In this document: piece after piece, positions 2,438 through 7,435 of the stretch | Layout of the letters: each line of letters starts with the position of its first letter | Numbering within the stretch: position 1 is the stretch's first letter | Origin: Nitrososphaerota archaeon | GTDB lineage: Archaea > Thermoproteota > Nitrososphaeria_A > Caldarchaeales > Wolframiiraptoraceae | NCBI GenBank assembly: GCA_021163925.1 | Contig: JAGGTD010000072.1 | Location: 1 to 41,699 of the forward strand | Reading direction: 5' to 3' | Length of the DNA: 41,699 nucleotides | Translations under genes and position numbers: made by a program | Notes under the pieces: generated by a model | Told to the model about the DNA's origin: nothing | Database searches by the model: none | Seen by the model: the letters and a program-made list of their open reading frames with translations, nothing else

Positions 2438-3793
2438 ATGAGCGTTGGAAAGGGTCGGATAATCGGATTAACACTCCTAATCCTGCTGATGATGCTAAGC
2501 CCAGTCATGGCCCAAGGCTATTCCATGATAGAGGACGATGTCGAGGTGAGGTTCAATTATCCATCTGAGATAAAGATGGGCACATGCATAACGATAAGCT
2601 TCTGGATGAAGGCGAAGAATAACCTAACAGATCTAAGCGTCAGGCTCACCCTAACCTACCACGCAAACTCCTACACCCAAGTAATCTATGACAAGATAAT
2701 AGTCTCAGAGACCTCAGTGACAGAGGGCTGGACCACCTCAAAATCCATAAATGTATGCATTCCGAGGGAGGTTGCCCCAGAACCCCATCTACAGGCAGAT
2801 CTAGAGACCTCATATAAGGTGAATGGATCATCTAAGGTTTTAGAGCATGATTGGTATATGTCGATCGTGAGGAGCAAGACCTATGAAGAGCTTGAAGAAG
2901 AGCTTGAAGAGGCTCGAAGCAAGATAAATAATCTAAAGGATGAGATAGATGACTTAAAGGCCGAACTCGATGAGAAAGAGGAGGCTTTAGAGAGCCTTCA
3001 AGAGAAATATAGCAATCTTCGAGGCTGCTATCAGCAACTACAGAACAAGTACGATCAGCTGGAGAAATCCTATAAAGACTTAACGGGCCAGTACAGAGAG
3101 CTAGATCGGAGATATGATGATCTGAGGGATAAGCATCAGCAAACCCTCCTAGACTTGGAGAGGCTTAGGGCGAAATACGATCTTCTCACGAGAGACTATG
3201 GAAAGCTTGATGAAAACTATAGGAATCTCTTAAAGGATTACGAGAACACGCTGGCAGACCTGAAGACTTACAGGTCGATGTATCAAGATTTGAAGGCCAG
3301 ATACGGGGATCTAGAGAGCAGGTATCACGATGCATTAGCCGAGGGCGCAAGTCTAAGGCAGAAGGTCGCCGACTTAGAGATCAGATATGGGGATCTGAGC
3401 AAAACCTATCAATCCCTCCTAGGGGAGAATATATTGGCGAAGAACGTGATCTTCGCCCAAGCCGCCGCGGTGGCCGCAGGGGTCGGAATATACATACTTG
3501 TCTCTAGAAGATTTCTGCGCAGAGCCGGCGGCAAGCCTGAAGGCGCGAACTTAGACTCTAATGAGGGGAACTCGAAGAGGGTTCAGAAGATATTGTCGGG
3601 TAGGAGGGTCACCATACCGCGTGATATTGCCGAGATGCTGGGATTGAGGGAAGGAGATAAGGTTGAAATATGCTTAGGGAATGGCCGAATGATAATCAAG
3701 CCGGCTAGGGAAGAAGCATCTAGCGGAGAGAAGATAATCAAGGAAACTGAGTCGGAGAATTGGAGTCCACCAGGCCGTAAACCCTTAAGATGA
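2438..3793 (+). CDS. Membrane-anchored protein: secreted coiled coil, one TM helix, cytoplasmic AbrB domain
   Basis: A 451-residue protein from ATG 2438; a longer frame to 2318 would overlap the divergent glycosylase. Residues 1-25 are a signal peptide (hydrophobic LTLLILLMMLSPVMA, likely cleaved before QGYS). Residues about 30-148 form a beta-rich extracellular domain with two Cys (50, 107). Residues about 150-330 are one continuous coiled coil in exact heptads; from 191 to 324 Tyr occupies most 'a' positions and Leu most 'd' positions. Residues about 336-356 are a membrane helix followed by RRFLRR, placing the C-terminus inside. Residues about 381-423 (SGRRVTIPRDIAEMLGLREG) match the AbrB/MazE/SpoVT swapped-hairpin DNA-binding domain. 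The visible architecture suggests an envelope sensor tethering a DNA-binding domain to the membrane; that function is inference. The adjacent radical SAM gene starts 28 bp downstream and may be co-transcribed. Confidence 0.85.
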   Translation: MSVGKGRIIGLTLLILLMMLSPVMAQGYSMIEDDVEVRFNYPSEIKMGTCITISFWMKAKNNLTDLSVRLTLTYHANSYTQVIYDKIIVSETSVTEGWTTSKSINVCIPREVAPEPHLQADLETSYKVNGSSKVLEHDWYMSIVRSKTYEELEEELEEARSKINNLKDEIDDLKAELDEKEEALESLQEKYSNLRGCYQQLQNKYDQLEKSYKDLTGQYRELDRRYDDLRDKHQQTLLDLERLRAKYDLLTRDYGKLDENYRNLLKDYENTLADLKTYRSMYQDLKARYGDLESRYHDALAEGASLRQKVADLEIRYGDLSKTYQSLLGENILAKNVIFAQAAAVAAGVGIYILVSRRFLRRAGGKPEGANLDSNEGNSKRVQKILSGRRVTIPRDIAEMLGLREGDKVEICLGNGRMIIKPAREEASSGEKIIKETESENWSPPGRKPLR

Positions 3794-5974: not shown

Positions 5975-6145
5975 ATGAGCCGTGAGAAAAGAGACATAGT
6001 TCCTATATGGCTAAAACCAGATTACTTGGATGATGGATTGTGGGAAGAAGATAGATGGAAAGACGTTAGAGGGTTCTCCAGCATCGGCTGTAGCTCAGTG
6101 TTGTTATGCTTCCAAGAGTTTATCGACTCTATCTCTAATGGGTAG
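5975..6145 (+). CDS. Short hypothetical ORF (56 residues), convergent with primase-like gene
   Basis: ATG 5975 to TAG 6143-6145, beginning MSREKRDIVPIWLKPDYLD, acidic and Trp-rich in the first 33 residues. The ATG overlaps the TGA of an upstream start-less frame (about 5863-5978, containing NADKIKLSGAIKRKLN) in the ATGA arrangement typical of translationally coupled genes. That upstream frame has no ATG/GTG/TTG, so both may be pieces of one decayed gene pair. The last 42 bp overlap the 3' end of the minus-strand primase-like gene, where the peptide reads like antisense. No family recognised. The 524-bp stretch 5580-6103 holds only this ORF and the remnant at 5608-5871. Confidence 0.3.
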   Translation: MSREKRDIVPIWLKPDYLDDGLWEEDRWKDVRGFSSIGCSSVLLCFQEFIDSISNG

Positions 6146-7435
6146 ATAGATCCTCTTATAGAATTCTCCTTGACTCTCCAAGATCTCTCTGGGAAAGCTT
6201 TTAACGTATCTCACCGCGGCCTCCCAATATTTCTCAAATGCTTCTCCAAATCTGGCGGCAACTTGTCTATCGAAGTCTATCGGCCTCTGAGTCTGTCCAC
6301 CGATCATGAACCATCCATCTTTAGATTTGAAGGCGATCTCATCTCCAATATGCTCCTCGACGACTTCCCTTTCACGCCTCTCCATAATCTTCCCATGCGT
6401 TGTCCTAATCTTCCTCCCCCTGACCCCACGATGCTTTGCCCAAGCATAGAATATCGCCCTATTTAATCCGAAGGACTTGGCCTTCTCTAAATCTCCCTTA
6501 AGCACGTAGTATCTCGCAGCCTGCACGAGAGCCATGACCTGGAATCTACCAACGGATCTCAGCGGAGTCCTTCGACCTCGGCTTTCCCTCTGTTTAACCC
6601 CTATGCTAAGTCTATTCTCGTCCTTCACGGCTTCCAATGCTTTCTCGGCGAGCTCATCAGCCTCACCTTCAGAGAACCTATCCCAATCCCTCCAATATCT
6701 GAAGTTTCTTGGATCGGCCCACGATAGATCGAATTCATCCAGCTTCTCAGGATCTATGGTCACCGCGACTAGATCAAGCTCTCTATGGAGGCTTAAGGGT
6801 GCTGTGAAGACCCTCTGAACATCCATTATATTCTCTAGTTTCAACCTCCTCTCCGGATCCTCAGATCTCTCACAAAGTTTCATGAGGTCGTCCTTGGCCT
6901 CCCTCAGGATATATTCCACGACCGAGAAGGCGGTTCTCAGGGGATCAATCTCCCAGAACTTCCCGCTTATCGCCCTCTCATTCAGATGTAGATGTATACC
7001 TCTCCCAGACCATACCAGGTAGATTGATTTCTCAACCCCAAATCTTCTAAGCCTCTCCACCAAGATCTTCGCTGCTTCCTTAATCAGATCGATCTCGTTG
7101 AGTGAGCCATCTATATCCCAGCTCGGGGTGGAGTAGAGGATGTTATCCCGTTGGAGATCCTCCTTCCCTTCAAGCCTTCTGTAAATGTTTGCAGAGGCGT
7201 AGAAGGTTCTCGGAGCACTGTACCTAAACTTATTCAAGATCTTCTTAATGTCAACGGGGCTTGAGATCGTTAGAGGTCTCTCCCCATCCCAATACCTATG
7301 GAATATCCTCCTCCCCCTCCTAGAGAGGGATTCTAGGGCGACCCACCTACCCCTACAAAACTTCGCTATCTCGGTGGCCACATCCTCCCTCAGGTAATGC
7401 TTGAACGAGAACTCTATACTCGCCCTCTCACTCAC
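6104..7435 (-). CDS. Divergent archaeo-eukaryotic primase (PriS-like) family protein
   Basis: A 443-residue protein with the three AEP catalytic motifs in order. The metal-binding Asp-x-Asp is at 107/109 (SWDIDG), a Ser-Gly-Arg-Gly-x-His at 143-148 (WSGRGIHLHL), and the third Asp at 205 in MDVQRVFTAPLSLH, which parallels the 'D.KRLIRLP.SLHG' motif of archaeal PriS. Unlike canonical PriS there is no cysteine/histidine zinc knuckle between motifs I and II, and about 200 extra residues follow, Arg/Lys-rich with no domain I recognise. It may be a paralogue of the replicative primase with a repair or translesion role rather than the replicative subunit. Starts at GTG 7435, preceded by an AT-rich element. 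Confidence 0.75.
   Translation of the reverse strand: MSERASIEFSFKHYLREDVATEIAKFCRGRWVALESLSRRGRRIFHRYWDGERPLTISSPVDIKKILNKFRYSAPRTFYASANIYRRLEGKEDLQRDNILYSTPSWDIDGSLNEIDLIKEAAKILVERLRRFGVEKSIYLVWSGRGIHLHLNERAISGKFWEIDPLRTAFSVVEYILREAKDDLMKLCERSEDPERRLKLENIMDVQRVFTAPLSLHRELDLVAVTIDPEKLDEFDLSWADPRNFRYWRDWDRFSEGEADELAEKALEAVKDENRLSIGVKQRESRGRRTPLRSVGRFQVMALVQAARYYVLKGDLEKAKSFGLNRAIFYAWAKHRGVRGRKIRTTHGKIMERREREVVEEHIGDEIAFKSKDGWFMIGGQTQRPIDFDRQVAARFGEAFEKYWEAAVRYVKSFPREILESQGEFYKRIYLPIRDRVDKLLEA

Follow-up and report, generated by a model that had tools for sequence, protein, structure and literature searches.

S-layer anchors are regarded as purely external. The described protein closest in plan to the one reported here is SlaB, the heavily glycosylated stalk that carries the S-layer of the Sulfolobales (PMC6911244), in which a signal peptide, beta-sandwich, coiled coil and C-terminal membrane helix follow one another in that order (PMC6911244; PMC10903991; PMC5744192). 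When slaB is silenced in Sulfolobus, division is impaired and the cells are large and hold more than two chromosomes; the authors of that work suggest that SlaB might be in contact with the division machinery (PMC6805947). Tetrabrachion of Staphylothermus marinus is likewise a surface coiled-coil stalk with beta-rich outer arms; it differs from our protein in being far larger, in the right-handed undecad coiled coil of its reported stalk fragment, and in that an AbrB domain is unreported (PMC5744192).

AbrB-type hairpins are known from soluble proteins, among them bacterial AbrB, SpoVT and MazE. Sso7c4 is an archaeal AbrB-type protein that binds DNA, and its residues R11, Q14 and R22 correspond to D11, R15 and R23 of AbrB (PMC5222340). 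Archaeal fusions of the AbrB-PhoU type also place AbrB within a long polypeptide, and three such ORFs (PhoU-type by reading) occur in the genome studied here; their AbrB part is N-terminal, without signal peptide or membrane helix, whereas that of the stalk protein described below is C-terminal.

Results

Gene and domain layout

The window analysed is a 41,699-nucleotide stretch of DNA from a Nitrososphaerota archaeon (contig JAGGTD010000072.1), whose genome assembly measures 1.1 Mb and is 81% complete. Positions 2438–3793 of the + strand, on which all the parts listed here lie, hold an ORF of 451 amino acids plus stop with an ATG start. An upstream TTG start at 2318 was rejected in favour of the ATG at 2438 because the signal peptides of the homologues start at that same place. 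On the opposite strand, an HhH/endonuclease-III-like ORF (1309–2508, −) has a first ATG that overlaps the start of the stalk gene by 71 bases, and its true start is probably internal. Elsewhere in the window, an ORF of 443 amino acids (6104–7435, −) contains SWDID and GRGIHLHL, motifs that by eye resemble those of the small subunit of archaeal DNA primase; Pfam gave no significant match for it.

Two segments of the protein are hydrophobic, the N terminus and residues about 337–353. The former belongs to a signal peptide (residues 1–25; 2438–2512) with predicted cleavage after A25; 28 of the 31 homologues have an alanine at −1. An extracellular beta-sandwich (residues 26–146; 2513–2875), delimited by conservation, AlphaFold2 and Foldseek, is followed by a coiled-coil rod (residues 147–330; 2876–3427) and by a predicted membrane helix (residues about 331–358; 3428–3511), assigned from hydrophobicity, model and charge, with a basic cytoplasmic edge, SRRFLRR. 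All 31 homologues have three to six Lys/Arg in the first 12 residues after this helix and none or one before it, and the C terminus is therefore predicted to lie inside the cell. There, a disordered linker (residues 359–380; 3512–3577), Pro-rich and longer in many homologues, leads to an AbrB/MazE/SpoVT hairpin (residues 381–426; 3578–3715) with SGRRVTIP at 387–394, and an unconserved tail (residues 427–451; 3716–3790) completes the chain.

The presence of all these elements in one polypeptide, as the preliminary description had read it, proved to be real, and the same order recurs in 31 Caldarchaeales genomes. That recurrence rules out an assembly-error fusion of a stalk with an AbrB gene. 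A phage origin was also considered and rejected, no match having been found.

The cytoplasmic AbrB hairpin

The C-terminal domain was recognised by two curated profiles, PF04014 at residues 390–426 (Pfam profile search; E=4.7e-10, 39.7 bits against a cut-off of 24.7) and TIGR01439 (33.1 bits against 28.3). The C-terminal model has a helix at 331–361, the disordered linker, a helix at 395–401 and a hairpin at 409–414/417–422 with local pLDDT of about 80; confidence is low outside helix and hairpin, and the monomer model leaves the first strand of the beta-alpha-beta-beta AbrB fold unassigned. Foldseek of this model returned AbrB, MazE and SpoVT as best matches, the first being 1yfb (AbrB-N; probability 1.00, rmsd 1.9 Å over 48 columns, E 0.0099), the modest E-values reflecting the shortness of the domain. 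An AbrB fold for residues 381–423, as first suggested for them, thus holds in so far as the monomer model predicts the hairpin and the top Foldseek matches are AbrB and MazE. Profile scores over curated cut-offs, conservation and fold together led us to reject a chance hairpin.

We mapped the DNA face of AbrB onto the stalk protein by counting from the conserved proline, after PMC5222340. R390 occupies the place of AbrB R15 and is invariant (31/31 homologues), the arginine beside it, R389, is invariant in the same 31, so that the loop arginine is doubled, and position 384 is basic in every one. By contrast, the places of Sso7c4 R22/AbrB R23 and of AbrB R24 are taken by A398 (P+4) and E399 (P+5), positions that are basic in none of the 31; AbrB D11/Sso7c4 R11 corresponds to S387 and AbrB R8 to Q383. 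As judged from the alignment, the AbrB DNA face keeps a reinforced loop half and lacks its helix half. On these grounds this end of the protein may bind DNA, which should not be presumed.

The outer beta-sandwich and the rod

The AlphaFold2 model of the extracellular domain (pLDDT 92.5, pTM 0.83) is a single beta-sandwich. Its cysteines C50 and C107 are invariant among the homologues and could form a disulfide. Foldseek matched this domain to generic arrestin-like/Ig-like sandwiches only, and a sequence search of the PDB with it gave nothing useful.

The rod is highly regular. Leucines 166, 250, 292 and 306 are invariant and leucines 201, 215, 222, 229, 257, 264, 285 and 320 near-invariant, and the conserved leucines from 166 to 320 all fall in a single heptad register, free of any phase shift. 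One heptad core position is Leu in 79% of cases and the other is most commonly Tyr (44%), and the power at a 3.5-residue period is 30.3, against a maximum of 7.9 in 2000 shuffles. The distance from Y149 to E330 is 174, 181 or 188 in 31/31 homologues and thus changes by whole heptads (−7/0/+7), as expected of a structural rod, for which 0.15 nm per residue would give a length of some 27 nm. Matches of this region to Pfam/NCBIfam models of SMC, Rad50, EzrA and ZapB were set aside as generic coiled-coil resemblance.

Conservation, distribution and loss

Mean pairwise identity is highest in AbrB (0.50), the most conserved region overall, followed by the beta domain (0.39), rod (0.35), linker (0.27) and tail (0.16). 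The dN/dS of AbrB lies between 0.00 and 0.17 in nine pairs, and the domain order is maintained by natural selection. Caution is due for the window itself, since in its own genus pair AbrB evolves faster than the outer domain and rod, the dN of AbrB being 0.129 (beta domain, 0.023) and its dN/dS 0.15. The linker from membrane to AbrB, disordered in the model, spans 27 to 68 residues across the homologues. Calditenuaceae homologues (L060, L063–L065, L068–L069) show a tail dS of 0–0.11 with normal dN in pairs such as L064/L065 and L060/L065; this near-zero synonymous change probably stems from overlap with a convergent malate-dehydrogenase-like gene.

A search for the same domain order in related archaea had been proposed, and it found the order well kept. 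Membrane helix and AbrB are retained, in single copy, in 31/44 species genomes of the Caldarchaeales (Aigarchaeota), to which the genera Wolframiiraptor, Geocrenenecus, Benthortus and Calditenuis among the relatives belong, and the outer domain occurs in 38/44, again once in each. No membrane-plus-AbrB match was found outside the Caldarchaeales in 349 Thermoproteota genomes, the matches there consisting of the AbrB end only or extending backward only across stop codons. A scan of 84,980 genomes for [IV][LI]SGRR[IV]T[IL]P picked out 33 stretches, of which 24 encode relatives, with names compatible with Caldarchaeales or less specifically archaeal.

Proteins of other families that are related through the outer domain lack AbrB; they pair the sandwich with a coiled coil, usually add a membrane helix, and in several cases end in polyproline. 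Such proteins (L100–L112) make up a wider Thermoproteota family, mostly with a membrane helix and often with a polyproline end; those members tested had no specific Pfam or NCBIfam assignment and are candidates for unrecognised surface stalks.

A tree built without the AbrB columns places AbrB bearers in every main branch of the Caldarchaeales, AbrB being absent from one clade (genus g8) and from 3/5 members of genus g4. Downstream of the stalk gene in the seven genomes without the AbrB end we found no separate, frameshifted or remnant AbrB, which agrees with clean loss. On the simplest reading, with which the tree is compatible, AbrB was gained at or before the base of the Caldarchaeales on an older stalk and lost at least twice. 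No neighbouring gene is conserved across the order, and the families share no operon clues.

Discussion

The likeness to SlaB extends over signal peptide, beta-sandwich, coiled coil and single C-terminal membrane helix, all in the same order. SlaB has two or three beta-sandwiches, whereas the Caldarchaeales stalk has one; SlaB ends directly after its membrane helix (...RKIS), whereas the Caldarchaeales protein goes on with a linker and AbrB. The slaB gene stands beside slaA, whereas the stalk gene has no S-layer neighbour and none common across the order, and the heavy glycosylation of SlaB (PMC6911244) compares with only 0–4 N-glycosylation sequons in the outer part of the stalk. NF040788, the SlaB model (cut-off 700 bits), had no match over its cut-off in the Caldarchaeales, although this is a Metallosphaera-type model and S. 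acidocaldarius SlaB also falls below it. The beta-domain profile did not match SlaB convincingly; its best domain E was about 0.015, to L124/L126, and the matched part there likewise adjoins the coiled coil. Because domain number, neighbouring gene and curated model all fail, and the outer-domain homology is uncertain, we speak of a protein that works in a SlaB-like manner and not of SlaB itself. A separate SlaB in the same genome was also considered and rejected, the sole profile match (C1:22472) being an ABC-transporter binding protein with a coiled-coil tail. This SlaB-profile match (L135:7273–8769; G000:C1) is of siderophore/cobalamin type, lies in a transporter operon and has a coiled coil and a membrane helix at its C-terminal end.

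The AbrB end compares with Sso7c4 and with bacterial AbrB, SpoVT and MazE in hairpin fold and in the loop arginine at the place of AbrB R15; it differs from these soluble proteins in standing behind a membrane helix and in lacking the helix arginines. Both halves of the protein, surface stalk and AbrB hairpin, are thus of known kinds, and we found no description of their combination in an open-access library of 5.39 million papers. Within that scope, the earlier statement that no described system of the same layout was known agrees with what we found.

These comparisons enable us to propose a model in which a SlaB-like surface stalk has acquired a cytoplasmic AbrB clamp that grips an anionic partner, a reading that we prefer while rating its chances as evenly balanced. 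Sequence and models support a protein that is exported, with one beta-sandwich atop a rod of roughly 27 nm, crosses the membrane once and ends inside the cell, its AbrB hairpin hanging in the cytoplasm on the disordered linker. Rods may associate and the beta-sandwich may hold the coat or another surface partner, while AbrB hairpins of two chains could swap to form a basic pad (384, 389, 390) just beneath the membrane. Such a pad might grip an anionic cytoplasmic partner, be it DNA, protein or membrane, and the whole would act as an envelope tether rather than a ligand-driven transcription factor. A flexible linker of 27–68 residues suits a tether; against the model count the differences from SlaB set out above, the faster change of AbrB in the window's own genus pair, and the relatives lacking AbrB, which show that it is dispensable for the stalk. 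It is also conceivable, though rather doubtful, that the tether runs across the membrane from the surface coat directly to the chromosome, the stalks positioning AbrB pads on DNA and so coupling coat assembly with nucleoid position or segregation. This would be in line with the DNA-content defect on SlaB silencing in Sulfolobus (PMC6805947), a phenotype that makes a link between coat and interior plausible and is no evidence on the Caldarchaeales protein.

The preliminary description placed a membrane-tethered AbrB domain behind an outer rod, and this stands as predicted layout and topology. Its further proposal, that a surface contact is coupled to chromosome position or gene control, does not fare as well: two genera lose AbrB yet keep the stalk, the linker is disordered and of variable length, which makes it an unlikely path for a conformational signal, and the helix arginines are missing in all 31 homologues. 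Reading the protein as a contact sensor also overlooks the closest analogue, the Sulfolobales SlaB, whose extracellular parts are arranged in the same order. An alternative would be a membrane-bound one-component regulator following ToxR/CadC logic with the chain reversed, in which outer domain and rod sense the state of surface or coat, an AbrB dimer binds promoters and the signal passes by clustering. The AbrB fold with its invariant basic loop, the strong purifying selection on AbrB and the DNA binding of archaeal AbrB proteins such as Sso7c4 (PMC5222340) all speak for a regulator. We nevertheless consider it unlikely, given P+4/P+5 positions that are never basic, a disordered and variable linker, the lack of an evident target or conserved neighbour, and the loss of AbrB while the stalk stays.

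The absent DNA-binding helix residues that count against a regulator favour a role in which the hairpin makes no nucleic acid contact and serves only for dimerisation or protein docking, for instance by joining stalks in pairs beneath the membrane or by holding a protein of division or secretion. MazE, an antitoxin of AbrB fold that ranks with the nearest relatives of solved structure, has a toxin protein as its partner, and the impaired division on SlaB silencing in Sulfolobus (PMC6805947) would fit as well; yet three fully conserved basic positions exceed what dimerisation needs, and we hold this role to be improbable too. Regulated proteolysis, by which a membrane protease would release the AbrB tail as a soluble regulator, might be suggested by the lone membrane helix and the long disordered linker behind it, but no linked protease was seen among conserved neighbours and this route seems very unlikely indeed. 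The clamp or tether is placed before both the regulator and the docking module because a cable passes no conformational signal and allows capture of a nearby partner.

By joining stalk and AbrB, the protein could connect the coat of the cell with its chromosome or with some other partner in the interior. One polypeptide running from the cell surface to an internal fold of nucleic-acid type is relevant to the communication of the archaeal coat with cell division and chromosome. With AbrB kept across most of the Caldarchaeales and lost in some genera, the order offers natural comparisons with and without a domain that is short and testable.
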